A program made the translations under genes and the position numbers. Positions 9,195-55,696 of a DNA stretch of 57,076 bases are shown in pieces. The notes beneath the pieces are model-generated. The model was given only the letters and a program-made list of their open reading frames with translations, searched no databases and was not told the DNA's origin. The stretch is from NCBI GenBank assembly GCA_017560095.1, contig JAFYOU010000028.1, positions 1 through 57,076 on the forward strand, given 5' to 3'. The stretch's first letter is position 1; each line of letters opens with the position of its first letter. The DNA is from Candidatus Gastranaerophilales bacterium (GTDB lineage: Bacteria; Cyanobacteriota; Vampirovibrionia; Gastranaerophilales; Gastranaerophilaceae).

Positions 9195-9206
9195 AGTATA
9201 ATCATA
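9195..9206. promoter_or_regulatory. overlapping divergent -10 elements, leaderless start geometry
   Basis: TATAAT on the plus strand (9197-9202) ends 6 bases before the ATG at 9209. TATGAT on the minus strand (9206-9201) ends 6 bases before the rarA ATG (9194). Both predicted transcripts would begin at or next to the A of the start codon. Neither gene has a ribosome-binding site. Confidence 0.55.
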
Positions 9207-9208
9207 TC

Positions 9209-10456
9209 ATGATTAAAAGGATAGTATTATTTGTAATTTTAATTTTTGTTTTGTGGTATGGGGTTTCTAAAATTAAGCAGTATCAGCCTGATGTTGATAC
9301 CAGAAAGAAATTTACCTTTTGGTCAATTCAATTGAAACCAATATATGAAAAACAAATGAATAATATTATTTCGGAGTTTGAAGAAAAATATCCAGAATAT
9401 AAGGTTGTTTGGGTTGATATTCCGATACAAGAAGCCCAAAAAAGAACTCTAGCTTCTATATTATCTTCAACTCCTCCTGATTTGATTAATTTGAATCCTG
9501 AATTTTCACATATTTTAGCTAAAAAAAATGCATTAGAATTTTTAAACCCTATAAAAATGAATCGTTTTCATGAGGGGCTTGTGAATAAATTGAAATATAA
9601 GGAGCATGTTTACGGTATTCCTTTTTATGCGACAAGTCCTGTTGCTGTATACAATAAAGAAATTTTAAATAAATGCTTAAACGGGCAAGTTATTAAAACT
9701 TATAACGATTTAATTTTAAACTCTCAAAAACTATATGCATGTTCAAAAGAGCCAGTGTATGTTGCAAATTTAAATGAAAACGATACTTTATTGAAGATTT
9801 TAAATAAATATGACATTCAAGATTTTTCTAGTGACGAAGTTGTTGACGCTGCCAAATTGTATAATGCGCTAAATTATATGTATAAAGCGGGATATATGCC
9901 TAAAGATACCTTAACTATCAATCATAGAGAAGTTATTGAAAAATATATGTCAAATCAAGCTTCAGTAATTGTTGCGGGAACAAATTTTATAAAAATGATC
10001 AAGGAAAATGCACCTGATGTATATAAAAAAACTGCTATATCTGAACAATTAGTTGGGAGTAATAAAAAGTATGACGTTTCATTGATGAATCTTGTGATTC
10101 CAAAAAAAGCAAAAAATAAAGAATTAGCGTATGAATTTGCAAGTATTTTAACGAGCGAAGAAAATCAACTAGAACTTGCAAAACAGACTAATGTATTACC
10201 AGCAAACATTTTTGCTCTTCGGAATAATTATTTTAAAAATTGTTCTTCTGATATTGTTGATAAATCTCGTTGCGTAAGTGTTAAGCAGCTTGATAATTTA
10301 ATTATAAATAATGTTGAAATAAAAGATAAAAAAGCATTAAATGAGGCTTTAAATAAAGAATTGGAGCGGATTTTACTAGACAAAAATTCCGATTTTAAAT
10401 TAATTAAAATCGGAATAAATAACCTTTTTCCATTATTGAATTCATTTATTGAATAA
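9209..10456 (+). CDS. extracellular solute-binding protein family 1 (sugar-type ABC transporter)
   Basis: 415 aa, periplasmic binding-protein fold of the maltose/glycerol-3-phosphate type. Typical segments are FWSIQLKPIYEKQMNNIISEFEEKYP (strand 1 and helix), TPPDLINLN, GIPFYATSPVAVYNKEI and the late VIPKKAKNKELAYEFASIL...NQLELAKQTNVLPA. The N-terminus is one hydrophobic segment (residues 4-18) without a lipobox Cys, so it is probably membrane-anchored or cleaved by signal peptidase I. No permease or ATPase gene is adjacent, so the ligand and partner are unknown. No Shine-Dalgarno; predicted leaderless. Confidence 0.8.
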   Translation: MIKRIVLFVILIFVLWYGVSKIKQYQPDVDTRKKFTFWSIQLKPIYEKQMNNIISEFEEKYPEYKVVWVDIPIQEAQKRTLASILSSTPPDLINLNPEFSHILAKKNALEFLNPIKMNRFHEGLVNKLKYKEHVYGIPFYATSPVAVYNKEILNKCLNGQVIKTYNDLILNSQKLYACSKEPVYVANLNENDTLLKILNKYDIQDFSSDEVVDAAKLYNALNYMYKAGYMPKDTLTINHREVIEKYMSNQASVIVAGTNFIKMIKENAPDVYKKTAISEQLVGSNKKYDVSLMNLVIPKKAKNKELAYEFASILTSEENQLELAKQTNVLPANIFALRNNYFKNCSSDIVDKSRCVSVKQLDNLIINNVEIKDKKALNEALNKELERILLDKNSDFKLIKIGINNLFPLLNSFIE

Positions 10457-10460
10457 AAAA

Positions 10461-11174
10461 TTAAACATTAACACTTTGCCCTTGTTTAATTTTTTCTAAG
10501 TTTTTCTTAGCCATAGAGAATTTTTGTGCCATTTTTTTAACAAAATCAATAGCTTCAATATCTCTTTTTATAGCGCTTTTTAGATTTAAAATTTCCTCAT
10601 AATTCAACGTGTCAATTTTTGATGTTTCGCAAATTTCAAAAATGTTTTTAAATTTTTCTTGTGTTTCGTTTTCGAAACCTGATAATTTCATTTTATAGCA
10701 ATACCAATTATAAAATTGATAAATAAAAGCATAAGTGTTTAATTCACCATTCCTTAAAACAAACATTTCAGGAGTAGTGAAACTTATTTTTTTATTTAAA
10801 ACAAAATTCAAATAAAGAGCAACCTTACCTTTTTTAGGTAAAATAAAGCCTTCTTGTTCATTAATGCGTGCCAAAATTTTATCCGCATTTTTAATTTTAT
10901 AAATTGGAGTTTTGGCCCCTTTTATAAAATCAAAAAACTTATCAGGTTCGTTTATGTATTTTTCGATAATTTTTTCTATTTTTTCTTGGTTTGCCTTATC
11001 TTTTTTGTAAAGTTCATCTTTAATAGATAAAGTAGCACCATTTGTTGTGATTATTTTTTGTCCACAAACTTTACCTTTTAAAAGTTTGTCCATTTTTTTC
11101 TTGTGCTTTTTTTCTTGATTTTTATAAATAAAATCAAATATTTTAATTGAAATTTTGTCGATTATTTTTTTCAT
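10461..11174 (-). CDS. hypothetical basic protein
   Basis: 237 aa, not recognised. The N-terminus is strongly basic (KNQEKKHKKKMDKLLKGK); the rest is a predicted helical, Lys-rich protein without signal peptide or membrane segments. There is an ATG at 11178-11180, but the GAGG at 11181-11184 abuts it. The ATG at 11172-11174 sits 6 bases after GAGG and is preferred. It stands alone, convergent with the solute-binding protein gene (4-base gap). Confidence 0.65.
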   Translation of the reverse strand: MKKIIDKISIKIFDFIYKNQEKKHKKKMDKLLKGKVCGQKIITTNGATLSIKDELYKKDKANQEKIEKIIEKYINEPDKFFDFIKGAKTPIYKIKNADKILARINEQEGFILPKKGKVALYLNFVLNKKISFTTPEMFVLRNGELNTYAFIYQFYNWYCYKMKLSGFENETQEKFKNIFEICETSKIDTLNYEEILNLKSAIKRDIEAIDFVKKMAQKFSMAKKNLEKIKQGQSVNV

Positions 11175-11205
11175 AAGCATCCTCTATATAGAAATAAAAA
11201 CAATT

Positions 11206-11233
11206 TTGCGAAAAAAATTGCCTGTAATATAAT
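11206..11233 (+). promoter_or_regulatory. promoter of the pseudouridine synthase gene, leaderless geometry
   Basis: TTGCGA (11206-11211), 16-base spacer, TATAAT (11228-11233). The ATG follows after 6 bases at 11240, so the transcript is expected to begin at the start codon. No Shine-Dalgarno is present. Confidence 0.6.
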
Positions 11234-11239
11234 TGATTT

Positions 11240-11965
11240 ATGAGAATTAATAAATATATTGCTCAAAGCGGTTTTTGTTCAAGAAGAAAAGCTGATGAAT
11301 ATGTTTTAGCAGGTCGCGTCAAAGTAAATGGCGAAGTTGTTACAATGCTTGGCTATGAAATAAGGGTTAAAGATAAAGTAACAATTGATGATAAAATTCT
11401 TCGAGCGGACAAATTAGAGTATTTTAAATTTTATAAACCAACAGGCTACATAACCACAAAATCTGATGAAAAAAATAGGAAAACTATTTATGATGTATTG
11501 CCAAAAGAATATCATCATTTAAATCCTGTTGGGCGACTAGATAAAGATTCTTCAGGCTTAATTATTATGACTAATGATGGTAATTTGACATACGAATTAA
11601 CGCATCCATCTATAAAAGTGGCTAAAACTTATCTTGTTAAAGTGGATAGTAAATTAACAGATGATAAGCTTCAAAAATTAACGGATGGAATTGAAATTGA
11701 AAAAGGGAAAATTGCATATTGTGATTGGGCAATTTTAGAAGAAGACAAAAATTCAACATTATTTGAGATAATTTTATATCAAGGTTTAAATCGCCAAATA
11801 AGAAAAATGTTTGAATTTTTGGGCTATAATGTGATAAATTTAAAACGTATTAGACATGCAAATATTGAATTAACTGGTTTAAAAAAAGGTCAAATAAAGC
11901 AAATTAAACCAAGACAAATAAAAGAATTAAAGGCTTATTTAAGTAAAATTAAAGAGGAAAAATAA
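11240..11965 (+). CDS. rluB: RluB/RsuA-family rRNA pseudouridine synthase
   Basis: Converts a specific uridine of rRNA to pseudouridine. The S4 RNA-binding domain is at residues 1-45 (RINKYIAQSGFCSRRKADEYV). The catalytic motif GRLDKDSSGLIIMTNDG (~98-114) contains the nucleophilic Asp. The C-terminal part shows EGLNRQIRKM-like LYQGLNRQIRKMFEFLGY. The 241-aa length fits RluB or RsuA; which rRNA site is modified cannot be decided here. The stop codon abuts the serS ATG, so the two are co-transcribed. Confidence 0.88.
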   Translation: MRINKYIAQSGFCSRRKADEYVLAGRVKVNGEVVTMLGYEIRVKDKVTIDDKILRADKLEYFKFYKPTGYITTKSDEKNRKTIYDVLPKEYHHLNPVGRLDKDSSGLIIMTNDGNLTYELTHPSIKVAKTYLVKVDSKLTDDKLQKLTDGIEIEKGKIAYCDWAILEEDKNSTLFEIILYQGLNRQIRKMFEFLGYNVINLKRIRHANIELTGLKKGQIKQIKPRQIKELKAYLSKIKEEK

Positions 11966-13228
11966 ATGCTAGATATCAAGTTAATCAGAGAAAATCCTGA
12001 AAAAATTAATGAATTATTAAAAAGAAGAAACCCTGAATTATCGGTTGATTCTGTTATAAAAATTGATGAAGATAGAAGAAAAATTCAATTTGAGCTAGAC
12101 AACTTAAGAGCAACTAGAAAAACTGAATCAAATAAAATTGGTGCTATGAAAAAAGATGGCATTGATACAACAGAGCTTCAAGCACAAATTCGTACAATGG
12201 GTGATGAAATTAAAGTTTTAGAGGAGAAATTGACCGAATTAGACTCCGCTCAAAAGGAAGCATTGCTATTTATCCCAAATACTCCTGATGAAACAACCCC
12301 AGTTGGAGCAGATGATAGTGCTAATGTTGAAATCAAAACTTGGGGTGAACCAACAAAGTTTGATTTTGAAGCTAAAGCTCACTGGGATTTATGTCCTGAA
12401 TTAAATATGCTTGATTTTGAAAGAGGAGTTAAATTAGCTCATACTCGTTTTACTTTATATCGCGGTAAAGGTGCAAAATTAGAAAGAGCTATTATTAATT
12501 TCTTTTTAGATACACATTGCGAAACAAGAGGTTATGAAGAAATTCTTCCTCCAGTTATGGCAAATTCAAAAACAATGACTGGAACTGGACAACTTCCAAA
12601 ATTTAAAGATGATATGTTTAAATGTGTTGATGAAGATTTATATTTAATTCCAACAGCAGAGGTTCCCGTTACAAATATTTATCAAGATGAAATTTTAGAT
12701 GAAGTAGATTTGCCAAAATATATGACAGCCTATACTCCATGTTTTAGAAGAGAGGCAGGATCTGCTGGTAAGGATACTCGTGGTTTAATTAGACAACATC
12801 AATTTAATAAAGTCGAACTTGTTAAATTAACAAAACCTGAAGAATCAGCAGATGAACATGAAAAATTAACTCAAGATGCTGAAAATGTTTTAGAATTATT
12901 AGGGCTTCCATATAGAAGAGTGGCACTTTGTTCTGGTGACATTGGATTTAGTGCTAAAAAATGCTATGATTTAGAAGTTTGGATGCCTTCATATAATGCT
13001 TATAAAGAAATTTCTTCTTGTTCTAATTTTGGAGATTATCAAGCAAGACGTGCTAATATTCGTTTCAGAAGAAAAGACGGTTCTGTTGAATTTGTCCACA
13101 CTTTAAATGGTTCAGGTTTGGCGGTTGGAAGAACTTTGGCTGCAATTTGTGAAAACTTCCAAACTAAAGATGGTCATATAATAGTACCAGAAGTTTTGAG
13201 AAAATATACTGGTTTTGATATAATTTAA
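11966..13228 (+). CDS. serS: seryl-tRNA synthetase
   Basis: Charges tRNA-Ser. The N-terminal 110 residues form the antiparallel coiled-coil arm that grips the tRNA long variable arm ([36 protein letters not shown] begins it). Class II motif 2 is [22 protein letters not shown] (~265-285). Motif 3 is [17 protein letters not shown] near the C-terminus. Length 420 aa is standard. GAGGA lies 8 bases before the ATG, inside the end of the upstream pseudouridine synthase gene. Confidence 0.97.
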
Positions 13229-13252
13229 TTATAATCTTAGGAGATAAGAAAT

Positions 13253-13672
13253 ATGAAAAAATTTTTAGTATTGTTATTAATGTTAGCGATAGCTGGTTTT
13301 GCAACTGTTAGTGCTGCAGATAAAGCTGTAAAGGCGCAAGCTAAAGCTCAAAAAGAAGCCTTAAAAGCTCAGGCAAAAAAAGAACAAGAGGTTGCTAAAG
13401 CCCAAAAGAAACACCAAAAACAATTAGCTAAAGAATTGAAACATAAAAAAGATATTATAAAAGACGCTGAATATAAACAAATTAAAATGGATTACTTTAA
13501 TGCAGATGGGTATGGCGATACATATAATTGTAAGGTTGCTCAACAAAGATTTTGTAAAGTAAAAGATTTAGATACAGGCGTTTATGTTCTTTGTGATAGA
13601 GAAGTTTCAAGAACGCAAATGGAATCAGCTAAAATCTTTTATAGATTAGGAAGATGTACTAAGTTAAATTAA
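13253..13672 (+). CDS. small secreted protein with Lys/Ala-rich helix and four-cysteine C-terminal domain
   Basis: 139 aa, family not recognised. A signal peptide (KKFLVLLLMLAIAGFATVSA, cleavage after VSA) is followed by a highly charged helical repeat of KAQAK/KEALKAQAKK type (residues 22-65). A compact C-terminal domain then has Cys at CKVAQQRFC, YVLC and GRC, suggesting two disulfides in the periplasm. AGGAGA precedes the ATG. It lies 24 bases after serS but has its own ribosome-binding site and terminator. A copy of its last 30 bases occurs again at 16090-16119. Confidence 0.75.
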   Translation: MKKFLVLLLMLAIAGFATVSAADKAVKAQAKAQKEALKAQAKKEQEVAKAQKKHQKQLAKELKHKKDIIKDAEYKQIKMDYFNADGYGDTYNCKVAQQRFCKVKDLDTGVYVLCDREVSRTQMESAKIFYRLGRCTKLN

Positions 13673-13676
13673 TTAA

Positions 13677-13701
13677 AAACCCCTCAATAATTGAGGGGTT
13701 T
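13677..13701. terminator. bidirectional terminator between convergent genes
   Basis: AAACCCCTCAA pairs with TTGAGGGGTTT. It lies 4 bases after the plus-strand stop codon and 3 bases past the stop of the minus-strand gene, with T/A-rich flanks on both sides. A diverged copy is at 16138-16165. Confidence 0.9.
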
Positions 13702-13704
13702 CTT

Positions 13705-15996
13705 CTAATTGTAATAGCATTCGCGAATTAAATAAGCTATTCCTGCTCTTTCTTTAAGATCTTTAGCGTATTCTGTATAGCCTTTATAGCCAGCTTTAAT
13801 TAACTCTTCTTTAATTTGAGAGGAAGTTTCTTCCGCTATAACATCTTCGAATGCATTAGTAATAATAACTTTGTCAACTTGTCCATATTTATACTTGATT
13901 TCTAAAAAGCGGGTACTACCCTTAAGTTCAAAAATGTAATGTTCACTTTTTATTTTACCTGTTGGATAAAAGTCTATTGCGTTCAAAGGATACATATAAC
14001 TTTGTATTTTGTTTGCAACTCCATCCCAACTATCAATTTCTATAAAGCGATAATTAGAACCCTTTTGATAGTCGGGATGAAGTATTCTTTTTAAATTACC
14101 ATTTTCATCATATTTTACATTATAAGGGTGTATAACGAAGCGTTCGGGGGGATTTCCTTCGGTTATTTTCGGAAATGTTTCTCCAACTACATTATAATGG
14201 CCATATACATCACGTTCGAAAGCAATCGTACAACCATTGCTTTTCACTATTTCTGTCTCGATTAATGTCCCATTTGCATCAAAACACTTATAAGTACCAT
14301 CTTTCCAATACTTCTCATGCCTTTTTTTATAACTACGTGGCCTCCTAATTATTTCTTTAATAGGATCATTTTCACCCCTATCTGGGTAATTCGAGTAATC
14401 AGTTATAGTTGTTTCGGTTCTACTATTCTCTACTACTACTATGCTTCCATTTGCTCTTGTATATGTTTTTGTGTATCCATCCGCACTAGTTTTAACAATA
14501 TTTCCCTGATTTAATGTTGCACTTTTATTTGTATCTTTATGTGAAATTTTGTCCGTACCAGAACCATTATATACTCCAAGTCCCGCTGTTTTAACTTTTG
14601 GACTAGGGACTGGGTTTTGTTTAGTTTCAGCAGTTACTTCTTCTAATCGTTTTTGCACCGAATGAGCTATTCTTGCTCTTTCTTGAAGATCTGAAGCGTA
14701 TTCTGCATAGCCTTTATAGCCAGCTTTATTTAACTTTTCTTTAATTCGAGAGGAAGATTCTTTGGCTACAACTTTATTGTATTTATTTGTAATAGTAATA
14801 TTGTCAACTTGTCCATTTTCATTAAACTCGATTTTAAAATCATAGTTATCATAGTTAAGATTAAAACCGTAATGTTCAGTTTTTATTTTACCTGATGGAT
14901 AAAAATATATTTCGCTCAAAGGACAGCTATAACTTTGTATTTTGTTTGCAGCTTCATCCCAACCACCATATCTTATGCGCTCATGTCTATATCTATAGTC
15001 AGTCAATATATAACTTAAATTACCATTTTTATCATATTTTACACAACGAGGGTGTATTTTGAATTGTTCGGGATATTGAGTATTTTCTCCTTCGGGTTTT
15101 GGTGGAAATGTTTCTGTATCTACTAATAAACGGCCATAAATATCACGCGAGAATCTAATATAAGAATCATCGCTTTTCATTCTTTTTGTCTCGGTTAATT
15201 CCCCATGTTCATTAAAAAGCTCATAATCACCATTTTCCCAATGTCTTTCAATGAGTATTTTATCAGAACGTCCCTTATATATTTCTTTAATAGGTTTATC
15301 TTTATCCCTATTTGAGCAATTCGAGTAATCAATTGTAGTTGTTGTTTTATTATTATCCACTACTACTACGCTTCCATCCCTTCTTGTATATGTTGTTATG
15401 AATCCATCTGCACTAGTTTCAACAATATCTTTCCCATTCAATGTTAGTTTTTGAATTGGATTGTAATCTAAATCGGACGAATAAGTACCCTTATATATTC
15501 CGGATTCCGTTGTTATAACTCTTGAACCAAGGACTCCATCTCTAGCAGGTTTTGTTATATTCGTGCCATATTTAGTTTCGGCAATTACTTCTTTTAAGCC
15601 TCTTTCATCATAAACATATTCTTTTTCAAAAGCTTTTTCACCTTTTCTTGAAACGTGTTTTAATCTTCCAGAAGCATAAGTATGTTCAATTGTATCTCCA
15701 TTTTTAAGAGTTCTTGTAGCAACACCACTGAATTTTTTGTCATCAAGCGTATATGCTACTTTCTTTTTAAACTTAAGATCTTTTATATCAATTGATGGCG
15801 TATCAGATTTTTGAAGAAGCCTTAAAATTACTTTTAATGCTTCTGCTGTAGCTTGACTAAACTCCTCTTGTTTGTGTATAATTTCCCTAACTTCTTCGGC
15901 AGTTAAAGGTTTATCTGACTCAGTTTTAGCTTTAAAGGAGATAGAGCCGCCTTTAAAAAATGTTTTTGAATAATTATGCGCAAAATTAACTTGCAT
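13705..15996 (-). CDS. FKGG-type protein with two tandem ~310-residue YwqK/MORN2-like units
   Basis: 763 aa, function unknown. Residues 1-25 hold the motif FFKGGSISFKAK after MQVNF. Residues 30-65 form a helical segment (EEFSQATAEALKVILRLLQ). The rest is strand-rich, with short motifs such as DKNGNL, FYPSGKIKTEHY and FNENGQVDNITI that resemble MORN-variant/YwqK or YD-type repeats. The body is duplicated: residues ~135-451 and ~452-757 align throughout (TSADGF..TYTR.DGSVVVV / TSADGY.KTYTRANGSIVVV; WDEAANKIQSY / WDGVANKIQSY; KAGYKGYAEYASDLQERA / KAGYKGYTEYAKDLKERA). GGGAGA precedes the ATG. Paralogue of the next upstream minus-strand gene. No classical signal peptide. Confidence 0.75.
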   Translation of the reverse strand: MQVNFAHNYSKTFFKGGSISFKAKTESDKPLTAEEVREIIHKQEEFSQATAEALKVILRLLQKSDTPSIDIKDLKFKKKVAYTLDDKKFSGVATRTLKNGDTIEHTYASGRLKHVSRKGEKAFEKEYVYDERGLKEVIAETKYGTNITKPARDGVLGSRVITTESGIYKGTYSSDLDYNPIQKLTLNGKDIVETSADGFITTYTRRDGSVVVVDNNKTTTTIDYSNCSNRDKDKPIKEIYKGRSDKILIERHWENGDYELFNEHGELTETKRMKSDDSYIRFSRDIYGRLLVDTETFPPKPEGENTQYPEQFKIHPRCVKYDKNGNLSYILTDYRYRHERIRYGGWDEAANKIQSYSCPLSEIYFYPSGKIKTEHYGFNLNYDNYDFKIEFNENGQVDNITITNKYNKVVAKESSSRIKEKLNKAGYKGYAEYASDLQERARIAHSVQKRLEEVTAETKQNPVPSPKVKTAGLGVYNGSGTDKISHKDTNKSATLNQGNIVKTSADGYTKTYTRANGSIVVVENSRTETTITDYSNYPDRGENDPIKEIIRRPRSYKKRHEKYWKDGTYKCFDANGTLIETEIVKSNGCTIAFERDVYGHYNVVGETFPKITEGNPPERFVIHPYNVKYDENGNLKRILHPDYQKGSNYRFIEIDSWDGVANKIQSYMYPLNAIDFYPTGKIKSEHYIFELKGSTRFLEIKYKYGQVDKVIITNAFEDVIAEETSSQIKEELIKAGYKGYTEYAKDLKERAGIAYLIRECYYN
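13726..15594 (-). repeat. internal tandem duplication inside the FKGG-type gene
   Basis: Two units of about 0.95 kb (15594-14644 and 14643-13726) encode homologous halves. They are clearly diverged at the protein level, so the event is not recent. Boundaries are set from the aligned protein motifs and are approximate. Confidence 0.7.
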
Positions 15997-16089
15997 TGTT
16001 TATCTCCCATTTGTTTCCTTGTTTAATTTAATGTTTCTAAAAATGTGAAGTTGTCAAAATTAAAATTAAAAGTTACAAAACTTATTATT

Positions 16090-16119
16090 AATCTTTTATA
16101 GATTAGGAAGATGTACTAA
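16090..16119 (+). pseudogene. duplicated 3' tail of the small secreted protein gene
   Basis: These 30 bases are identical to 13633-13662, the end of the 139-aa secreted protein gene (coding IFYRLGRCTK). They are followed, as in the original, by an AT-rich spacer and a terminator. No upstream part of the gene remains. Confidence 0.75.
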
Positions 16120-16137
16120 ATTAAATTAAATTAAATT

Positions 16138-16165: not shown

Positions 16166-16168
16166 AAT

Positions 16169-17581: not shown

Positions 17582-17640
17582 TGCTGTTTCCTTTTTTGGT
17601 ACTTCAATTACAATTGCATAAGTCATATGAATTTTCGCAA

Positions 17641-21564: not shown

Positions 21565-21572
21565 AGTATAAT
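21565..21572. promoter_or_regulatory. overlapping divergent -10 elements
   Basis: AGTATAAT gives TATACT on the minus strand (21570-21565; 7 bases before the Fe-S protein ATG at 21557) and TATAAT on the plus strand (21567-21572; 9 bases before the ATG at 21582). Both transcripts would have essentially no leader. The same octamer AGTATAAT occurs in the rarA divergent promoter (9195-9202). Confidence 0.55.
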
Positions 21573-21581: not shown

Positions 21582-22565
21582 ATGAAATATGCAAAACTAA
21601 TTAATGGAAAAATTCAAATAATTGATGCCTTTAAACCTGTATTAACAGCAAAAGGTGCAATTATAAAAGTTTTGGGATGTGGGCTTTGTGGTTCAGATAT
21701 TGTTAAAATTAAACAGGCAACTCCTGAAAATGAAGATAAAATTATTCTCGGCCATGAAGTAGTTGGGATTATAGAAGAAATAAATTGCAGAGTAAGAGAT
21801 TTAAAGGTTGGCGATGTTGTCGCTCTTGGGCATCATTACCCTTGCTTTAAGTGTGAATATTGCAAGAATAATTCTTATTCTATGTGTAAAACTTTTAAAG
21901 AATCTAACATCTCTCCCGCTGGATTTAGTGAATATATTAAAGTTGACGAAAATCACTTAAAATATACGGTTTATAGAATGAACCAGTTTTTAAAAGATGA
22001 TGAAAAAGCATTTCTTGAACCACTTTCTTGCTGCTTGAGAGCCATAAGAAGGGCTGGTTTTGAATATAAAAAAGACAACTCTATGCACAGTGCTTTGGTA
22101 ATTGGACTTGGCTCAATTGGACTTTTAATGTTGAAAGGCCTAAGAGCCTTTGGCGTGAATGCATATGGTCTTGATGTTTCTCAAGAACGTTCGATTTTGG
22201 CAGCTCAGCATGGTTTTTGTTTTGAAGATAATAAAAAATATGATGTTGTCTTTTTAACGGCTGGAAGTGACGGTGCTGTTCAAACAGCATTAAAGCATGT
22301 TATTGATGGAGGAAAGATAATTGTTTTTTCGTCAGTTAAAGATGAATTGACAGCTTTTTCCAATAACGAAATATATTATCGTGAGTTATCAATAATTTCT
22401 AGTTACTCACCTGCTGTAGAAGATATTAAATTGTCTAGCGAATTGATTAATAATAAAATTGTTGAAGTAAAAGGATTGAGCTCTAAGTATTCGCTTGACA
22501 ATTTGCAACAAGCGATTGATGATAGTATCGAAGGAAAAGTTTTTAAGGCTTATATCGAGATATGA
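21582..22565 (+). CDS. zinc-dependent medium-chain dehydrogenase, first of two
   Basis: 327 aa, alcohol/polyol dehydrogenase superfamily. The catalytic-zinc Cys lies in GCGLCGSDI (~residue 36) and the His in ILGHEVVGII (~57). The structural-zinc set is CFKCEYCKNNSYSMC (C-x2-C-x2-C-x7-C). The Rossmann nucleotide-binding motif is VIGLGSIGLLMLKG (~170). Substrate cannot be told. Its stop overlaps the start of the next dehydrogenase (ATGA), so the two are translationally coupled and may act in one pathway. No Shine-Dalgarno; near-leaderless promoter. Confidence 0.85.
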   Translation: MKYAKLINGKIQIIDAFKPVLTAKGAIIKVLGCGLCGSDIVKIKQATPENEDKIILGHEVVGIIEEINCRVRDLKVGDVVALGHHYPCFKCEYCKNNSYSMCKTFKESNISPAGFSEYIKVDENHLKYTVYRMNQFLKDDEKAFLEPLSCCLRAIRRAGFEYKKDNSMHSALVIGLGSIGLLMLKGLRAFGVNAYGLDVSQERSILAAQHGFCFEDNKKYDVVFLTAGSDGAVQTALKHVIDGGKIIVFSSVKDELTAFSNNEIYYRELSIISSYSPAVEDIKLSSELINNKIVEVKGLSSKYSLDNLQQAIDDSIEGKVFKAYIEI

Positions 22566-29175: not shown

Positions 29176-29245
29176 AAAATGATGTTAACACGATATCTGA
29201 TTTTTGTCGCATTAATTATTTATTAAAAGTTAAGTTAGCTATACT

Positions 29246-32397: not shown

Positions 32398-32426
32398 AAA
32401 AGGCGGTTCAATTACCGCCTTTTTTT
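32398..32426 (+). terminator. terminator after secF
   Basis: AAAAGGCGGT pairs with ACCGCCTTTT around TCAATT and ends in a T-run. The radA -10 box begins only 5 bases later, so terminator and next promoter nearly overlap. Confidence 0.93.
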
Positions 32427-32430
32427 ATGA

Positions 32431-32436
32431 TAAAAT
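32431..32436 (+). promoter_or_regulatory. -10 element of radA, leaderless geometry
   Basis: TAAAAT preceded by TGA (extended -10) ends 6 bases before the ATG at 32443. No Shine-Dalgarno. Any -35 (TTCAAT, 32407-32412) would lie within the secF terminator loop. Confidence 0.55.
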
Positions 32437-32442
32437 TTGTTT

Positions 32443-33837
32443 ATGGCAAAAGTTAAAACAAAATGGGTTTGTCAAAATTGTGGTTATGAAACAGTTTCAT
32501 ACCTTGGAAGATGTCCGGATTGTTCTCAATTTGGGACATTTGTTGAAGAAACGACACAAGTTGTTGCTACTGATTCAAGTAAACTTGCTAATCAGATTTC
32601 TAACGATTCAAAAGTGTCTCTAATAAAAGAGATTGAATTTGATGAAAAAATTCGTTTTAAGACAAATATTGAAGAATTAAATAGGGTTTTAGGCGGAGGT
32701 TTTGTTCAGGGCTCATTATCATTGTTAGCTGGGGATCCTGGAATTGGTAAGTCTACTTTAGTTTTGCAAACGACAAAAAGTATATGCGATATAAAAATAA
32801 ACAATCAAAACCTAAAAGTTTTGTATGTTTGTGCAGAAGAAAGTCCTTTGCAAGTTAAGTTAAGAGCTAAGAGATTAGGTGTAGAGCCTGATAATCTGTA
32901 TTTGACTAATCAAACTTGTATCAATGAGCTAATTAATCAGATTGATGTTATCAAACCTAATTTTTTGATTGTTGACAGTATCCAATCAGTTTTTTGTGCA
33001 AATGTTTCGTCAAGTACTGGTTCTGTTTCTCAAATTAGAGAATGCACAAATGCTTTAATGCAAATTGCAAAACAAAAAAATATAACAACTATTGTTATTG
33101 GGCATGTTACTAAAGAAGGAAATATTGCAGGGCCTAAGGTTCTTGAACATATGGTTGACTGTGTAATAAATTTTGAAGGTGACAAATATAAGCAATATCG
33201 TATTTTAAGATGTATTAAAAATCGATTTGGTGCAATATCTGAAGTTGGAGTATTTAAGATGGAAGATGACGGTTTAAATGAGGTCAGCTCTCCATCCCAA
33301 ATGCTCATGGAGCAACATCAAGGGGCTTTTGGAAGTGCTGTTGTTGCAACACTCGAAGGAAGTAGAATTTTTTTACATGAAATTCAGGCTCTTGTTGGTT
33401 CAACTAATTACGCTAACCCGAGAAGAGTTGCAGTAGGTATTGAGTATAATAGGCTTTTACAAATATTGGCTGTTTTAGAAAAGAAAGTTGGTTTAAATCT
33501 TTCAAAACAAGATGTATATGTAAATGTTGTTGGCGGAATTGATATAGTTGAACCAAGTTATGATTTAGCATTGGCTCTTGCTATAATTAGTTCTATTCGA
33601 GAAATTCCAATTAGGCCTGATACAATTTTAATTGGGGAAGTTGGCTTATTGGGTGAAATTCGCTATGTTGAAAATATAGAAAGAAGATTAAAAGAGGCTC
33701 AAAAACTTGGTTTCAAAAGAGCTATAGTTCCAAAAATGAATGATAAAACTTCTGCTAAGTTATTAAATGTTGGTCTTGAAATTAAACAGGTTTCAAAATT
33801 GACTGACGCCATAATTCAAGGTTTAAAACAAGATTAG
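32443..33837 (+). CDS. radA: DNA repair protein RadA (Sms)
   Basis: RadA is a RecA-like, DnaB-like helicase that promotes branch migration in recombination. An N-terminal zinc finger CQNCGYE...GRCPDC (~10-27) is followed by Walker A GDPGIGKST (~97), the RadA-specific KNRFG motif (~255) and a C-terminal Lon-protease-like domain (VNVVGGIDIVEPSYDLALALAI). The ATG at 32443 is preferred over the TTG two codons upstream because MAKVK is the usual family start. Length 464 aa. Its 3' end overlaps the convergent small gene by 4 bases. Confidence 0.95.
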   Translation: MAKVKTKWVCQNCGYETVSYLGRCPDCSQFGTFVEETTQVVATDSSKLANQISNDSKVSLIKEIEFDEKIRFKTNIEELNRVLGGGFVQGSLSLLAGDPGIGKSTLVLQTTKSICDIKINNQNLKVLYVCAEESPLQVKLRAKRLGVEPDNLYLTNQTCINELINQIDVIKPNFLIVDSIQSVFCANVSSSTGSVSQIRECTNALMQIAKQKNITTIVIGHVTKEGNIAGPKVLEHMVDCVINFEGDKYKQYRILRCIKNRFGAISEVGVFKMEDDGLNEVSSPSQMLMEQHQGAFGSAVVATLEGSRIFLHEIQALVGSTNYANPRRVAVGIEYNRLLQILAVLEKKVGLNLSKQDVYVNVVGGIDIVEPSYDLALALAIISSIREIPIRPDTILIGEVGLLGEIRYVENIERRLKEAQKLGFKRAIVPKMNDKTSAKLLNVGLEIKQVSKLTDAIIQGLKQD

Positions 33838-41229: not shown

Positions 41230-41235
41230 ATTTTA
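41230..41235 (-). promoter_or_regulatory. -10 element of the HD/OB nuclease operon, leaderless geometry
   Basis: TAAAAT on the minus strand, 6 bases before the ATG at 41223. It lies in the 41-base gap after nagZ. Confidence 0.5.
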
Positions 41236-44148: not shown

Positions 44149-44183
44149 TGAGTACAGAATAACAAAAAATAAAGGAAAAATAA

Positions 44184-47164: not shown

Positions 47165-47170
47165 TAAAAT
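47165..47170 (+). promoter_or_regulatory. -10 element of the spoIID-murJ unit, leaderless geometry
   Basis: TAAAAT preceded by TTG ends 7 bases before the ATG at 47178. No Shine-Dalgarno is present. Confidence 0.5.
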
Positions 47171-47177
47171 TGTAAAT

Positions 47178-50457: not shown

Positions 50458-50998
50458 ATATGGCGAAGTGCTTGCTTTTAAAACAGATACAGTTTGGGGT
50501 TTTGGATGTAATCTGTTAGATGAAATTGCGGTAAATAAAATTTATGAAATCAAAAGAAGAGATTCAAAGAAACCTTTGATTTTGATGAGCGATGATTTTA
50601 GACATTTAAAAAAATATATTAAATTTATTCCTGATTATGCCAATGATTTAATTGAAAAACATCTGCCAGGAGCTTTGACTTTAATTTTTGAAAAATCTGA
50701 TTTATGTCCCAATTTTATTACATCAAATGGAGATACTGTTGGAATCAGGATTCCAGATAGTGAAGACTTTAGAAAAATTATTTCTCAAATTGATGGAAAA
50801 GTTTTAGCGACAACATCTTGTAATGTGAGTAATGAAGAACCTGTTATGAACTATAAAGAAGCTTGTAATAAATTTGGAAATTTTGCAACAATAATCGAAC
50901 CAATTAAAGATGAAGAAAATGAAAATGTTCCATCAACTGTAATTTTGTGCGAAAAAGAGAGTTATAAAATTTTAAGACAGGGGGCAATTAAATTATGA
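50450..50998 (+). CDS. tsaC: L-threonylcarbamoyladenylate synthase (TsaC/YrdC/Sua5 family)
   Basis: First step of the tRNA t6A37 modification. 182 aa, the short TsaC form. Motifs: FKTDTVWGFGCN (~10-21), KRRDSKKPLILM (~40-50), HLPGALTLIFEKSD (~65-78), GIRIPD and LATTSCNVSNEEPV. It overlaps murJ by 8 bases, with GAGGA just upstream, and the following small gene by 4 bases (ATGA). Confidence 0.93.
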   Translation: MLKYGEVLAFKTDTVWGFGCNLLDEIAVNKIYEIKRRDSKKPLILMSDDFRHLKKYIKFIPDYANDLIEKHLPGALTLIFEKSDLCPNFITSNGDTVGIRIPDSEDFRKIISQIDGKVLATTSCNVSNEEPVMNYKEACNKFGNFATIIEPIKDEENENVPSTVILCEKESYKILRQGAIKL

Positions 50999-51282
50999 AA
51001 AAATTAATCATTTTTAGTTTATTATTTATGTCTGCTCTAGCATATGAAGAAGTTCCTCTTTTGATTGATACAAGTATTATTAATGTTGAAGTTGAAAAAG
51101 ACAATAAAGATTTAATTAAAATTCAGAACATGAAAAAACTTGATAGTATGAGTCGTGCAAAAGATGAAAAAACAAATTCGCAAAAACCAAAAATCAAGCT
51201 TGATACAAGACAAATTCATCATCAAAGAACCCTTGATTATATGAATAAACGAGGAAGTGGAACAATGTTGCCAATTTTTTAA
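50995..51282 (+). CDS. small exported protein of unknown function
   Basis: 95 aa. Signal peptide KKLIIFSLLFMSALAYEE, cleavage after ALA. The mature part is short, basic and probably disordered (KNMKKLDSMSRAKDEKTNSQKPKIK region). AGGGGG precedes the ATG; ATGA overlap with tsaC. Last gene of spoIID-murJ-tsaC-95aa. Confidence 0.65.
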   Translation: MKKLIIFSLLFMSALAYEEVPLLIDTSIINVEVEKDNKDLIKIQNMKKLDSMSRAKDEKTNSQKPKIKLDTRQIHHQRTLDYMNKRGSGTMLPIF

Positions 51283-51312
51283 AATTATTATTGATTCATA
51301 AATTGTTAGAGT

Positions 51313-51318
51313 TACAAT
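51313..51318 (+). promoter_or_regulatory. -10 element of the radical SAM gene, leaderless geometry
   Basis: TACAAT ends 6 bases before the ATG at 51325; no Shine-Dalgarno. Confidence 0.5.
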
Positions 51319-51324
51319 TAAATT

Positions 51325-51960
51325 ATGGTAGAAGACAAAGAAAATCTTTTATATTTTTTAGACAATAAGCCATATATAAATATGACAAACGCATGCACAA
51401 ACGCATGTGTTTTTTGCTTGCGAAATCAAAAAGATGACGTTCAAGGAGCAAATCTTTGGCTCGGTAAAGATAATGCAACTGCAAGTGCTGTCATAGAACA
51501 AATTGAGGCAAAAAAAGATGTTATATCTAAAAGTGATGAAATTGTTTTTTGTGGATATGGTGAACCTTTAATTAAAATTAATGAAGTAGTTGAAATTTCT
51601 AGATATTTAAAAGAAAACTTCCCGAATATTAAAATAAGAATTAATACAAACGGACACGCTAATGCAATTCATAAAAGAAATGTAGCACTTGAATTAGCTC
51701 CTTATGTTGATTCTATTTCAATTAGCTTAAATGGCGAAAATGAAGAAACTTATAACAAAGTTTCAAATCCAAAAATTGAAAACGCATACGAAGAAGTAAA
51801 AAGATTTATTCGAGCTTGCGTTGAAGAAAAAATTAAAACTACAACAACTGTTGTTTCTGGGGTTCCAAATTATCCAGTAAATGTTCAACGTTGTGAAGTT
51901 GTTGCAAAATCTCTTGGAGCAAAATTTAGAGCAAGAGATTTTATTGAAAATGGTTATTAA
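51325..51960 (+). CDS. radical SAM protein, TatD-associated type
   Basis: 211 aa. The cluster motif is CTNACVFCLR (C-x3-C-x2-C, ~residue 24-31), embedded in NMTNACTNACVFCLRNQKDDV, the hallmark of the TatD-linked radical SAM family. GYGEPLIKINEVVEISRYL is the glycine-rich motif, INTNGHAN and SISLNGENEETYNKV follow. The true substrate is unknown; many relatives sit beside or are fused to a TatD nuclease, but none is adjacent here. A GC-rich structured spacer follows the stop codon. Confidence 0.88.
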   Translation: MVEDKENLLYFLDNKPYINMTNACTNACVFCLRNQKDDVQGANLWLGKDNATASAVIEQIEAKKDVISKSDEIVFCGYGEPLIKINEVVEISRYLKENFPNIKIRINTNGHANAIHKRNVALELAPYVDSISISLNGENEETYNKVSNPKIENAYEEVKRFIRACVEEKIKTTTTVVSGVPNYPVNVQRCEVVAKSLGAKFRARDFIENGY

Positions 51961-51961
51961 A

Positions 51962-52038
51962 GGCGTAAGCCGGTGCTAAATCGGCGAAGCGTTGAGCTTT
52001 GACGATAGCACCACGAGAGCGACGTGGAACGAAGTTCC
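51962..52038 (+). other. GC-rich multi-hairpin spacer between the radical SAM and acetate-CoA ligase genes
   Basis: Non-coding and much richer in GC than its surroundings. Nested stems: GGC-GTAA-GCC (51962-51971, a GNRA-type loop); GGTGCTA 51972-51978 with TAGCACC 52006-52012, extended by TCG/CGA; inside it AAGC-GTTGA-GCTT (51987-51999); CCACG 52011-52015 with CGTGG 52023-52027; GGAAC-GAA-GTTCC (52026-52038). There is no T-run, so it is not a simple terminator. It may be a structured RNA or a genomic repeat element. Confidence 0.5.
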
Positions 52039-52081
52039 CCAGGAGCTAAAAAAAATAAAATACTAGAGGAAAGGATATATA

Positions 52082-54244
52082 ATGCTAAGTAAAATTATGA
52101 AACCTAAATCAGTAGCTGTTATTGGCGCTTCAACCAAGCCAAAAACTATTGGTTCAGAATTAATGCAAAGATTAAGAGACTATAAATTTCAAGGTAATAT
52201 TTACCCAGTTAACCCAAAAGGTGGCGTAATAGAGGGATTTCAAGCTTATACTTCTGTTTTAGAAATTCCAAACGAAGTTGATTTTGCAGTTATTATTGTT
52301 CCTCAAAAATTTGTTTTAGCTGCAATTGATGAATGTAATCAAAAAGGTATTAAAGGTATTTGTATTATCTCTGCTGGATTCAAAGAATCAGGCAAAGAAG
52401 GGGCAGAAGCTGAAAAAGAATTGCTTGAAAAAGTTAAAGCTTATGGAATGAGATTAGTTGGTCCAAACTGCCTAGGTGTATTAAACACAAATCCTGATGT
52501 ATCAATGGATGCAACTTTTGCTGAATCATTACCAATTAGAGGTGATATCGGTTTTGTTTCTCAATCAGGCGCGCTTGGTGGCGGTATTTTAAATATTTTA
52601 AAAGACTTAAATGTTGGTTTTGCTCAATTTATTTCAATTGGTAACCAAGCAGATGTTAACGCTGAAACTGCAATTGAATATTGGGAAAATGATGATGATG
52701 TAAAACAAATCTTACTTTATATGGAATCAATTCAAAACCCACAAAACTTTAGAAAATTAGCAACAAGAATTTCTAAAAAGAAACCAATTGTGGCTCTTAA
52801 GGCTGGTAGAAGTGCTGCTGGTGCAAGCGCAGCTTCTTCTCACACAGGTTCACTAGCAGGAGCTGATAAAGCCGCTAATGCACTTTTAGCTCAATCAGGT
52901 GTAATTAGAGAATATTCATTAAAGAATTTATTTGCAACTGCAAAAGTTTTCTCTAACTGTCCAATTCCAAAAGGTGATAGGGTTGCAATTATTACAAATT
53001 CAGGTGGCCCTGGTATTATGGCAACTGATGCAATTTGCGAATACGGTATGCAAATCGCTCCAATTGCAGATGCTACAAAAGATAAATTAAGAAGTTTTTT
53101 ACCTGCTGCAGCTTCAGTTAAAAACCCAATCGATATGATTGCTTCAGCTCCAATTGAACACTATATGCAAACATTAGAAACCGTTATTGCTGATGATAAT
53201 GTTGATATGGTTATGGTAATTTATCTTCCATTCTTAGGCCTAAAAGACATTGATGTTGCCAAAGCTATTATGGAAATCAAAGCTAAAAATCCACAAAAAC
53301 CTGTTATTGGCGTATTTATGACAACATCTGATTTCTTTACAAAATTATCTGAAATGGATGTTAATATGCCATTTTTTATGTACGCTGAGGAAGCTGCTGA
53401 AGGTTTAAACAGATTAAATCAACAAAGAATCTGGCAAGAACGTCCAGTTGGTCAAATTCCAACTTATGAAGTTGATAGAGCAAGAGCAGAAGCTATTATT
53501 AAACAATCAATCCATGAAGGAAGAGCTCAATTAACAACTCGTGAATCAATTGATGTTCTAGAAGCATATGGAATTCGTGTTTGCAAATCTGGTTTTGCAA
53601 CAAACTTAGATGAAGTTGTTGAAATCGGAAACAAAATCGGTTATCCAGTTGTAATGAAAATGACATCAAAAACAACATCTCACAAAACTGATGTTGGCGG
53701 TGTTAGAGTTAATATTCAATCAGAAGAGCAATTAAGAGCTGAATATAATGACTTAATTGCAAAATTAACTGAAAAAGGTTTAATTGATGGTCTTGAAGGT
53801 GTTATTATTCAAGAAATGGTTAAAGGAAACCGCGAAATGGTTTGTGGTATTGCAACTGATCCACAATACGGCCCAATGATGATGTTTGGTTTGGGTGGCG
53901 TATTTATCGAAGTTATGAAAGATGTAACATTTAGAATTGCTCCTTTGACAGACATTGATGCAACCGAAATGATTAAATCAGTTAAAGCATATAAATTGTT
54001 AGAAGGTGCTCGTGGAACTACACCAGCTCAAATGGATCAAATCCAAGAAACATTATTGAGATTATCTCAATTAGTTACTGATTATCCATTTATTGATGAA
54101 TTAGACATCAACCCACTTCTAATATCTGAAAAAACCGGTGAAGGTATTGCAGTTGATGGACGTATTAAAGTTCGTCTTGAAGAAGCAATGGATAAATTAT
54201 CAGGCGGTTGTGTATGTGGTTCATGTCATGGGTGTTGCCACTAA
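52082..54244 (+). CDS. ADP-forming acetate-CoA ligase (acyl-CoA synthetase, NDP-forming)
   Basis: 720 aa, single-chain form. Residues ~1-130 are the CoA-binding domain (SVAVIGASTKPKTIGSELMQRL). Residues ~140-450 are succinyl-CoA-ligase-like, with phospho-His in AASSHTGSLAGAD (~258). Residues ~490-705 are the ATP-grasp domain (YPVVMKMTSKTTSHKTDVGGVRVNI, GLGGVFIEVMKDVTFRIAPL). The enzyme makes ATP and acetate from acetyl-CoA in fermenting cells. Unusual tail: after DKLSGG the chain ends with Cys at 710, 712, 715, 718 and 719 and a final His720. AGGAAAGGA precedes the ATG. A strong terminator follows. Confidence 0.92.
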   Translation: MLSKIMKPKSVAVIGASTKPKTIGSELMQRLRDYKFQGNIYPVNPKGGVIEGFQAYTSVLEIPNEVDFAVIIVPQKFVLAAIDECNQKGIKGICIISAGFKESGKEGAEAEKELLEKVKAYGMRLVGPNCLGVLNTNPDVSMDATFAESLPIRGDIGFVSQSGALGGGILNILKDLNVGFAQFISIGNQADVNAETAIEYWENDDDVKQILLYMESIQNPQNFRKLATRISKKKPIVALKAGRSAAGASAASSHTGSLAGADKAANALLAQSGVIREYSLKNLFATAKVFSNCPIPKGDRVAIITNSGGPGIMATDAICEYGMQIAPIADATKDKLRSFLPAAASVKNPIDMIASAPIEHYMQTLETVIADDNVDMVMVIYLPFLGLKDIDVAKAIMEIKAKNPQKPVIGVFMTTSDFFTKLSEMDVNMPFFMYAEEAAEGLNRLNQQRIWQERPVGQIPTYEVDRARAEAIIKQSIHEGRAQLTTRESIDVLEAYGIRVCKSGFATNLDEVVEIGNKIGYPVVMKMTSKTTSHKTDVGGVRVNIQSEEQLRAEYNDLIAKLTEKGLIDGLEGVIIQEMVKGNREMVCGIATDPQYGPMMMFGLGGVFIEVMKDVTFRIAPLTDIDATEMIKSVKAYKLLEGARGTTPAQMDQIQETLLRLSQLVTDYPFIDELDINPLLISEKTGEGIAVDGRIKVRLEEAMDKLSGGCVCGSCHGCCH

Positions 54245-54263
54245 TTAATTATTAACTTAATTT

Positions 54264-54290
54264 AAAACGCTCCCAATTTGGGAGCGTTTT
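54264..54290 (+). terminator. terminator after the acetate-CoA ligase gene
   Basis: AAAACGCTCCC pairs with GGGAGCGTTTT around AATTT. The galE -10 box follows after 2 bases. Confidence 0.93.
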
Positions 54291-54292
54291 GT

Positions 54293-54298
54293 TATAAT
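54293..54298 (+). promoter_or_regulatory. -10 element of galE, leaderless geometry
   Basis: TATAAT ends 6 bases before the ATG at 54305. No Shine-Dalgarno. Any -35 would lie inside the preceding terminator. Confidence 0.6.
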
Positions 54299-54304
54299 TA
54301 ATTT

Positions 54305-55285
54305 ATGACAATCTTGATTACAGGTGGGGCGGGTTATATTGGTTCGCACTGTGCTTTAGAGATATTAAAGCGCGGGTTTAAACTTGTTATTTTTGATAAC
54401 TTATCAACAGGACATTTAGAAACCATTGAAAAATTAAAAACAATTGGTGAATTTGATTTTATTCAAGGAGATTTAAAAAATAAAGAAGAAATCGATGAAG
54501 TTTTTAATAAATTTAAAATTGATATAGTGTTTCATTTTGCATCATATTCGCAGGTAAACGAAAGCATAAAAGAACCTCAAAAATATTATATAAACAATGT
54601 TCTGGGGGCGATTAATCTTTTTGACTCAATGATCGAGAATAAAGTAAAAAAAATAATTTTTTCTTCGACCGCTGCAATATATGGTGAACCTATATATGTT
54701 CCAATTGACGAAAATCATCCAACAAATCCAATTAATCCATATGGTGAAACAAAATTGCAAATTGAAAAATATTTAGACGAATATGATAAATTATATAATT
54801 TAAAAAGTGTTCGCCTTAGATATTTTAATGTAGCTGGCTCAAATGGATTTGTTGGTGAAGAACATAATCCAGAAACTCATTTAGTTCCAAATATTTTAAA
54901 AGCAAGTAAAGATGTGCCATTTTGCCTTTTTGGAAATGACTATGATACAAAAGATGGAACATGTGTAAGAGATTATATTGATATCGAAGATTTAATTGAA
55001 GCGCATTTGTTAGCGTATGATTATTTAAAAAAAGAAAACAAAACAAATTTTTTTAATTTAGGAACTTCAAAAGGGGATACCACAAAAGAAGTTTTTGATT
55101 TATGTCAAAAAATAACTAATAAAAAAATAAATATAGAAATTAAACCCAGAAGAGATGGAGACCCTGCAATTTTAGTTGCAGACAATAAAAAAGTACAAGA
55201 AATTTTGGGTTGGACACCTAAAAAAACTTTGAAAAACAGTATAAAATCCGCATATAATTATATCTTAATGTCTAATAAAAAATAA
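54305..55285 (+). CDS. galE: UDP-glucose 4-epimerase
   Basis: Interconverts UDP-glucose and UDP-galactose for surface polysaccharide. NAD-binding motif GGAGYIGSHCALEIL at residues 7-21, FDNLSTGH, the catalytic Ser in FSSTAAIYGEP (~120) and YxxxK as YGETKLQIE (~147-151). RYFNVAGSN and DGTCVRDYIDIEDL are typical GalE motifs. 326 aa is normal. Stands alone or with tspO, which has its own possible promoter 12 bases before its start. Confidence 0.93.
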   Translation: MTILITGGAGYIGSHCALEILKRGFKLVIFDNLSTGHLETIEKLKTIGEFDFIQGDLKNKEEIDEVFNKFKIDIVFHFASYSQVNESIKEPQKYYINNVLGAINLFDSMIENKVKKIIFSSTAAIYGEPIYVPIDENHPTNPINPYGETKLQIEKYLDEYDKLYNLKSVRLRYFNVAGSNGFVGEEHNPETHLVPNILKASKDVPFCLFGNDYDTKDGTCVRDYIDIEDLIEAHLLAYDYLKKENKTNFFNLGTSKGDTTKEVFDLCQKITNKKINIEIKPRRDGDPAILVADNKKVQEILGWTPKKTLKNSIKSAYNYILMSNKK

Positions 55286-55297
55286 TTTTTTCTGCAT

Positions 55298-55303
55298 TAA
55301 TAT
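55298..55303 (+). promoter_or_regulatory. candidate -10 of tspO, leaderless geometry
   Basis: TAATAT ends 6 bases before the ATG at 55310; no Shine-Dalgarno. The match to consensus is 4 of 6. Confidence 0.3.
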
Positions 55304-55309
55304 ATTCAT

Positions 55310-55696
55310 ATGTTTGATATGGATTGGTATAATTCTTTAGTTTTTCCTGCTTTTGCTCCACCTGCCTGGGTGTTTGCGCCGGTTTGGTTTGTTTTATATG
55401 TTTTAATGTTTATATCTTTGGCTTTTTATATTATTTCAGATTATACCAATAAAAAATCGGGTTATATATTTTTTGCGACTCAACTTCTTTTGAATTTACT
55501 TTGGCCTCCTGTGTTTTTTGGATTAAAAAGCATTTTAGGTGGACTAATTATTGTGGTTTTATTGGATATTTTTGTATTTTTAACTACAAAAACTTTTTGT
55601 AATTTTTCAAAATGGGCATGTGTATTTTTGATTCCATATTTTATTTGGATTTTGTATGCAACTTATTTAAATTTTCAGTATTTGTTGTTGAATTAA
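55310..55696 (+). CDS. tspO: TspO/MBR family membrane protein
   Basis: 128 aa, five membrane segments. Family motifs: LVFPAFAPPAWVFAPVWFVLYVLMFISLAFYI (the PPxWxFxPVWxxLY motif), QLLLNLLWPPVFFGLKS and LIPYFIWILYATYLNFQYLLLN at the C-terminus. Relatives bind porphyrins. It is shorter than typical TspO (150-160 aa). Convergent with the prepilin gene, 1-base gap. Confidence 0.88.
   Translation: MFDMDWYNSLVFPAFAPPAWVFAPVWFVLYVLMFISLAFYIISDYTNKKSGYIFFATQLLLNLLWPPVFFGLKSILGGLIIVVLLDIFVFLTTKTFCNFSKWACVFLIPYFIWILYATYLNFQYLLLN

Follow-up and report, generated by a model that had tools for sequence, protein, structure and literature searches.

Introduction

In Deinococcus radiodurans, a TANNNT hexamer stands 6–7 bp before the open reading frames (ORFs) of nearly one third of the genes, and the text of that study reports no pathway bias for the leaderless genes (PMC12340547). 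In the survey of Zheng et al. (2011; PMC3160421), TA-led genes are those in which the first T of a TANNNT motif lies about 12 bp ahead of the start, and many Cyanobacteria are described as using neither Shine–Dalgarno (SD) nor leaderless starts; contrary to that survey, PMC5397173 names Cyanobacteria among the phyla reported to have many leaderless messenger RNAs (mRNAs). A prediction cited in the StartLink paper puts leaderless use in 21.6% of bacterial species. For divergent genes, bidirectional promoters have been described in Escherichia coli, where start-to-start distances of 18, 10 and 23 are common (PMC12825309). Here, we analyse a 57,076-nt stretch of DNA (the window), contig JAFYOU010000028.1 (C23 of our numbering) of a Candidatus Gastranaerophilales genome, in which an earlier note had picked out 13 genes with a −10 hexamer ending 6–7 bases before the ATG. 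Ordinary σ70-type promoters very probably serve these and many other genes of the genome and would yield leaderless mRNA that starts at the A of the ATG.

The lineage adjoins the cyanobacteria, the start modes of which are, as the papers above illustrate, disputed in print (PMC3160421 versus PMC5397173). The source genome gave no match to Photo_RC (PF00124), and the organism is taken here as a non-photosynthetic relative of cyanobacteria. For some of its relatives, the record titles point to animal gut samples as the source.

Sequences and methods

The window belongs to a 2.07-Mb genome of 58 contigs, with listed completeness and contamination of 98.7% and 7.07%. The gene sample comprised 812,876 bases (the window plus a further 756 kb, together 39% of the 2.07 Mb), in which 763 genes were called, 758 with a usable ATG and 756 with an upstream neighbour; seven of the 763 were dropped for an absent upstream neighbour or for lying less than 80 bases from an edge. 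Gene starts are the 5′-most ATG given by our own simple gene caller, and spacing is the number of bases between the end of the hexamer and the start codon. As a control, the 40 bases upstream of the 756 genes were dinucleotide-shuffled in 300 rounds. The survey of upstream sequences in the window covered 51 of the 62 listed ORFs, overlapping ORFs being omitted. Families and genomes carry our own f and G numbers, respectively.

A −10 hexamer at a fixed spacing from the ATG

The hexamer lies at a fixed spacing from the start codon and in a promoter-like context, and it is conserved in part of the orthologs. TATAAT was found at spacing 6 in 31 of the 758 genes and in at most eight at each of the other spacings between 0 and 45; for TAnAAT, the corresponding numbers were 65 at spacing 6, ten at spacing 7 and at most 17 elsewhere. 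In the shuffled sequences the mean counts at spacing 6 were 1.7 for TATAAT, 6.0 for TAnAAT and 33.2 for TAnnnT (maxima of 6, 13 and 51), against 31, 65 and 108 observed among the 756 genes. Internal in-frame ATGs were preceded by TATAAT at spacing 6 in only four of 4050 cases. When a motif model was built from half of the genes and applied to the other half, 71 of the 756 genes scored above 3 at the true position; at 40 shifted positions, the number of such genes averaged 5.3 and never exceeded 14. The tally against AT-matched controls, here run on 39% of the genome, therefore contains the excess that the leaderless geometry predicts. Because neither codon of the hexamer is a stop, the TATAATN6ATG peak is not created by the choice of the 5′-most ATG; for TAA-type hexamers this choice could inflate the peak, and these are better judged by the base at −1, the TG element and the orthologs.

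Among leading genes of transcription units in the sample, 93 of 532 had TAnnnT at spacing 6 and no SD site, compared with 6–21 (mean of about 12) at eight control spacings, corresponding to a leaderless excess of about 15% of leaders; over the shuffles, the share is about 10% of all genes. In the window, eight leaders at spacing 6 and four at spacing 7 make up 12 of 35. The estimate of about a third of leading genes made in the earlier note thus describes the window but not the sample, and its spacing of 6–7 is essentially 6, with 7 as a minor class.

Promoter and start-codon context

The surroundings of the hexamer resemble those of a promoter. In the 65 TAnAAT genes, T occupies position −1 in 85% and position −15 in 72%, compared with 44% and 32%, respectively, in the 170 leading genes that lack both signals. 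An extended −10 element, TG at −15/−14, was present in 35 of the 102 TAnnnT genes without an SD site and in 2–6 at five shifted places, and at least four matches to TTGACA at a distance of 17 bp were present in 16 of these 102 genes, compared with 3–9 at fifteen other spacings in the range 10–25.

The signal also depends on the start codon and on the position of the gene. Among start candidates close to gene starts, TAnAAT at spacing 6 preceded 63 of 1166 ATG, none of 154 GTG and two of 549 TTG codons. TAnAAT at spacing 6 without an SD site was found in 40 of 169 divergent genes, in 12 of 41 genes 20–60 bases behind a same-strand gene, in eight of 76 with a gap of at least 60 and in five of 98 with a gap below 20. 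In a plain comparison of medians, the divergent gap was 80 for leaderless genes (n = 62) and 126 for SD genes (n = 115). An SD site accompanied none of the 65 TAnAAT genes and six of the 108 TAnnnT genes, compared with 372 of 756 overall. The 16S anti-SD tail pattern was not found in the source assembly; SD use is nonetheless clear from the genes. Leaderless and SD genes did not differ in A-rich codons 2–4 (p = 0.62).

Members of the class in the window

All 13 hexamers named previously were recovered at the reported spacing by the upstream listing and a coordinate check, ten at spacing 6 and three (those of the Fe–S protein, spoIID and nrnA) at spacing 7, and TG stands at −15/−14 in five of the 13. 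The 12 window leaders counted above comprise 11 of these genes and a dehydrogenase gene at 21582; the two missing genes are tspO, which was not called, and the putative prepilin gene, the upstream neighbour of which is absent. The candidate elements and the features adjoining them are as follows.

9201–9206, minus strand: −10 element TATGAT of rarA (ATG 9194, spacing 6, TG at −15/−14)
9197–9202, plus strand: −10 element TATAAT of the solute-binding protein gene (ATG 9209, spacing 6), overlapping the rarA −10 element by 2 bp
9195–9208, no strand: divergent ATG-to-ATG spacer of 14 bp with both −10 elements, a putative shared two-way leaderless promoter
11228–11233, plus strand: −10 element TATAAT of an rluB-like pseudouridine synthase gene (ATG 11240, spacing 6)
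21565–21570, minus strand: −10 element TATACT of an Fe–S protein gene (ATG 21557, spacing 7)
29182–29187, minus strand: −10 element TAACAT of rlmN (ATG 29175, spacing 6, TG at −15/−14)
32400–32421, plus strand: terminator-like hairpin and T-run adjoining the radA −10 element
32431–32436, plus strand: −10 element TAAAAT of radA (ATG 32443, spacing 6, TG at −15/−14)
41230–41235, minus strand: −10 element TAAAAT of an HD-domain protein gene (ATG 41223, spacing 6)
44156–44161, minus strand: weak −10 element TATTCT of an nrnA-like DHH gene (ATG 44148, spacing 7, TG at −15/−14)
47165–47170, plus strand: −10 element TAAAAT of a spoIID-like gene (ATG 47178, spacing 7)
51313–51318, plus strand: −10 element TACAAT of a radical SAM gene (ATG 51325, spacing 6)
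54267–54286, plus strand: terminator-like hairpin adjoining the galE −10 element
54293–54298, plus strand: −10 element TATAAT of a galE-like epimerase gene (ATG 54305, spacing 6, TG at −15/−14)
55298–55303, plus strand: weak −10 element TAATAT of tspO (ATG 55310, spacing 6), absent from the called gene set
56883–56888, minus strand: weak −10 element TAGACT of a putative prepilin gene (ATG 56876, spacing 6), left out of the counts

For radA, the spacing of 6 applies to the ATG at 32443 rather than to the longer TTG ORF at 32437. Pfam agrees with the gene names given previously, with two exceptions: the 'HD/OB nuclease' matched the HD domain alone, and the 'prepilin' had no Pfam match at an E value of 1e-5. 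Trigger factor, SecD and a protein of the acetate-CoA ligase type, previously cited as examples of SD-led genes, are present in the window according to Pfam.

At radA and galE the hairpin directly abuts the −10 element of the leaderless gene (32400–32436 and 54267–54298). In the sample, such an arrangement was found in four of 31 same-strand leaderless genes with a gap of at least 20, compared with two of 217 other such leaders (Fisher p = 0.0025).

Orthologs and the spacer between rarA and the solute-binding protein gene

Orthologs were compared for TAnnnT at spacing 6. The rarA set comprised 43 of 44 loci with identity of at least 63% (63–92% to the window RarA), one partial locus and more distant phyla being omitted, and the solute-binding set comprised 37 of the 43 loci, the others being without a match at 45% identity. 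The window copy is included in the sets for radA (n = 28) and rlmN (n = 29), from which weak partial loci were omitted, for rluB (n = 30) and for galE (n = 26), from which four weak paralogue-like loci were omitted. Spacing 6 is kept in 39 of 43 rarA, 19 of 37 solute-binding, 16 of 28 radA and 10 of 29 rlmN orthologs, and is rare in rluB (5 of 30) and galE (3 of 26). The sequence upstream of the hexamer diverges widely among orthologs. In our own reading, the sequence upstream of the SD-bearing rluB genes often resembles the end of an upstream gene, so that the start mode may follow gene context. The counter-example is galE, in which 24 of 26 sequences have an SD site.

The start codons of rarA (ATG 9194, minus strand) and of the solute-binding protein gene (ATG 9209, plus strand) are 14 bp apart, and their −10 elements overlap by 2 bp within 9197–9206. 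The layout CAT-N(0–3)-TAnAAT-N6-ATG recurs in 21 of the 43 relatives, the identity of the second gene not being required. In other relatives the same TATAAT is followed by the solute-binding start 11 bases on without an SD site, or at a greater distance and preceded by an SD site. These orthologs read as a natural series, in either direction, of leaderless, short-leader and SD starts, and we infer that rarA and the solute-binding protein gene share an overlapping, conserved two-way leaderless promoter.

Divergent pairs with a gap of at most 50 included at least one spacing-6 gene in nine of 15 cases in the sample, and among all 140 divergent pairs ten were doubly and 44 singly of this kind. 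Since about seven double pairs are expected from the marginal rates, an excess of doubly leaderless divergent pairs is not claimed.

Inferred expression of leaderless and SD-led genes

The earlier note had assigned repair, RNA-modification and envelope genes to the leaderless class. With annotations for 20 of 54 leaderless leaders and for 20 of 224 SD leaders, numbers were too small for functional enrichment, and codon adaptation was therefore used instead, with tuf alone, from one genome, as the reference and as a proxy for expression. The median was 0.373 for leaderless leaders (n = 93) and 0.411 for SD leaders (n = 245; p = 1.2e-6); genes with neither signal also had a median of 0.373, as low as that of the leaderless genes. 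The top tenth of leaders (n = 57) contained 45 SD genes and no leaderless gene, and the top tenth of all genes contained none of the 102 leaderless genes compared with 61 of the 372 SD genes. Leaderless genes are present in the top quarter of leaders (13 of 146), and the gap is thus confined to the very top of codon adaptation. As judged from codon usage, leaderless genes are likely to be lower in expression than SD-led genes, and the proposed division by gene content, which stands in part, is better read as a division by likely expression, with the top codon-adapted genes having no leaderless members.

Spread across families

The spread was measured by counting TATAATN6ATG and TATAATN9ATG per genome in 117 rows, 66 of them labelled as the same phylum and 51 others. 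In the family of the window genome, the N6 form outnumbers the N9 form in 52 of 52 genomes (6402 versus 2865). In other families of the class, the N6 and N9 counts were 454 and 283 (ratio 1.6) in f4, 641 and 512 (1.25) in f6 and 201 and 198 (1.02) in f7. In the wider phylum (66 genomes), only f12 (2.24), f16 (4.0) and f20 (3.6) differ at p < 0.01; these are eight genomes, all without Photo_RC. Most photosystem-positive families have spacing-6 ratios of 1.0–1.3, as in f18 (16 genomes; 789 versus 767, 1.03), two tested genomes of which have photosystem genes; f30 is excepted. A clean split by photosynthesis is countered by f7, f10 and f23, which are near 1 and without photosystem genes in the genomes tested. 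The f30 genome, G203, has photosystem genes, yet shows 13 N6 against three N9 (p = 0.02), which also counters a clean split.

At the gene level, G102, from the family of the window genome, has a sharp peak at 6 and T at −1 in 23 of 26 genes. In G007 (f7), TAnAAT at spacing 6 occurred in none of 164 genes and there was no peak. No peak at 6 (one gene) was found in the f12 genome G167, a small sample of 93 kb and 75 genes that warns against relying on the pattern count. In G009 (f4) and G024 (f6), the peak at 6 has a tail to 9 and the preference for T at −1 is weak, and this spread of the hexamer over 6–9 suggests that exact leaderless starts are accompanied by very short leaders. SD sites are few in G009 (75 of 331; control window, 34).

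As a tentative proposal, some non-photosynthetic relatives of cyanobacteria would divide their genes by output between two start channels, SD starts for high and leaderless starts for low output, with compaction at one locus to a shared 14-bp spacer. Such a system would have arisen or been retained on the non-photosynthetic side of the phylum, although not in all families; it is placed on that side because the excess is weak or absent in most photosystem-positive families.

Proposed mechanism and alternative explanations

In the mechanism that we favour, a housekeeping (σ70-type) promoter would have its −10 hexamer end six bases ahead of the start codon, transcription would start on the A of the ATG to give a leaderless mRNA, and the ribosome would engage the 5′-terminal AUG; the precise start of transcription, the lack of a leader and entry at the terminal AUG are read from sequence. 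This mode would be used mainly by genes that head transcription units and for which lower expression is predicted. Beside it stands a second, SD-led mode, to which belong most of the highly codon-adapted leaders and over half of the genes that closely follow another on the same strand. The leaderless interpretation has held up on the sharp spacing, the promoter features, the restriction to ATG, the preference for transcription-unit heads and many orthologs, those of galE and rluB not included.

Several observations weigh against this interpretation. The −35 signal is weak, and in many single genes the −35 element or TG is weak or missing. Part of the exclusion of SD sites simply follows from the hexamer occupying the SD window, and the starts are those of our own simple gene caller. 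The ten TAnAAT genes at spacing 7, and a few at 8–9, may include some with leaders of 1–3 nt. As many as 193 of 531 leaders have no SD 4-mer and no TAnnnT at spacing 6 and fit neither mode. Leaderless status is labile, the orthologs being SD-led in 24 of 26 cases for galE and in 19 of 30 for rluB.

The alternative that survives best, although it is improbable, is that the promoters are real but that transcription starts 1–5 bases upstream or further, giving a very short or normal leader. The tail at 7–9 and weak T at −1 in G009 and G024 are as very short leaders would give, and in some relatives the TATAAT beside rarA stands 11 bases before the partner ATG without an SD site. In the family of the window genome, however, the peak at 6 is one base wide and is combined with T at −1, which is the classic start geometry, and TAnAAT at spacings 0–5 is found in just 0–6 genes each.

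In Bacteroidota, an A/T-rich sequence in the mRNA leader serves as a translation signal, and the hexamer could be such a signal rather than a promoter. A translation signal would be expected inside operons and before GTG and TTG as well, whereas TG at −15/−14, the −35 element at 17 bp and depletion close behind same-strand genes are promoter features; this explanation is very unlikely, even though an upstream A/T bias is, according to the text of PMC5397173, not simply attributable to leaderless start signals.

Still less probable is a misassignment of starts, with the true starts lying downstream behind SD sites. The simple gene caller would allow it, but an SD site and start within 90 nt downstream were found for only five of 102 leaderless genes, the corresponding counts being 16 of 372 for SD genes and 41 of 282 for genes with neither signal. 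From its ATG, moreover, RarA begins in a similar way in 43 relatives. Some starts of the neither-signal genes are misassigned, as the 41 of 282 indicate. Chance in a genome of 30% GC may explain individual weak cases, for example tspO and prepilin, since TAnnnT is common (33 expected among 756 genes), but for the class it is refuted by the spacing profile, the 52 of 52 family genomes, the orthologs and the shuffles.

Significance and comparison with known systems

Gene finders that rely mainly on SD sites will assign wrong starts in this group, and the ortholog series of rarA with the solute-binding protein gene and of rluB show switching among leaderless, short-leader and SD starts. According to work cited in PMC9581028, certain antibiotics inhibit initiation on leadered mRNAs while sparing leaderless ones; if leaderless mRNAs indeed carry low-output genes, such antibiotics should shift expression toward the leaderless set.

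As the earlier note had supposed, leaderless genes with this spacing are already known in Deinococcus–Thermus and Actinobacteria, the former on the basis of PMC12340547, and for this lineage no description was found in the open-licence literature on Melainabacteria, Gastranaerophilales and Vampirovibrio, although an earlier prediction may exist elsewhere. In the same literature, Gastranaerophilales together with transcription start sites gave one paper, on diet and liver by its title and the opening of its abstract.

The spacer between rarA and the solute-binding protein gene resembles the bidirectional promoters of E. coli (PMC12825309) in that pseudo-symmetrical DNA serves divergent genes. 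It differs in that both RNAs would be leaderless, with the ATGs 14 bp apart and a predicted start-to-start distance of 15; the main text of that paper never uses the word 'leaderless'. The class as a whole is comparable to the TA-led genes of PMC3160421 in the place of the motif and in the conclusion that a leader is missing, and the excess of TANNNT, the absence of SD sites (partly forced) and the preference for AUG are all found here. However, this cyanobacterial relative uses both modes, and Melainabacteria are not matched in the text of that survey. The likeness is closest in detail to Deinococcus–Thermus (PMC12340547), with the same hexamer, the same spacing and an SD class alongside. The differences are that the lineage belongs to another phylum, that its genome is low in GC and the hexamer is therefore near TATAAT, that the share is smaller (about 10% of genes over shuffles versus nearly one third) and that the top tenth of codon adaptation contains no leaderless gene. 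Taken together, the leaderless start is well supported by sequence and would be a known mechanism in a new lineage, to which this study adds a likely split by expression and a putative conserved two-way leaderless promoter.

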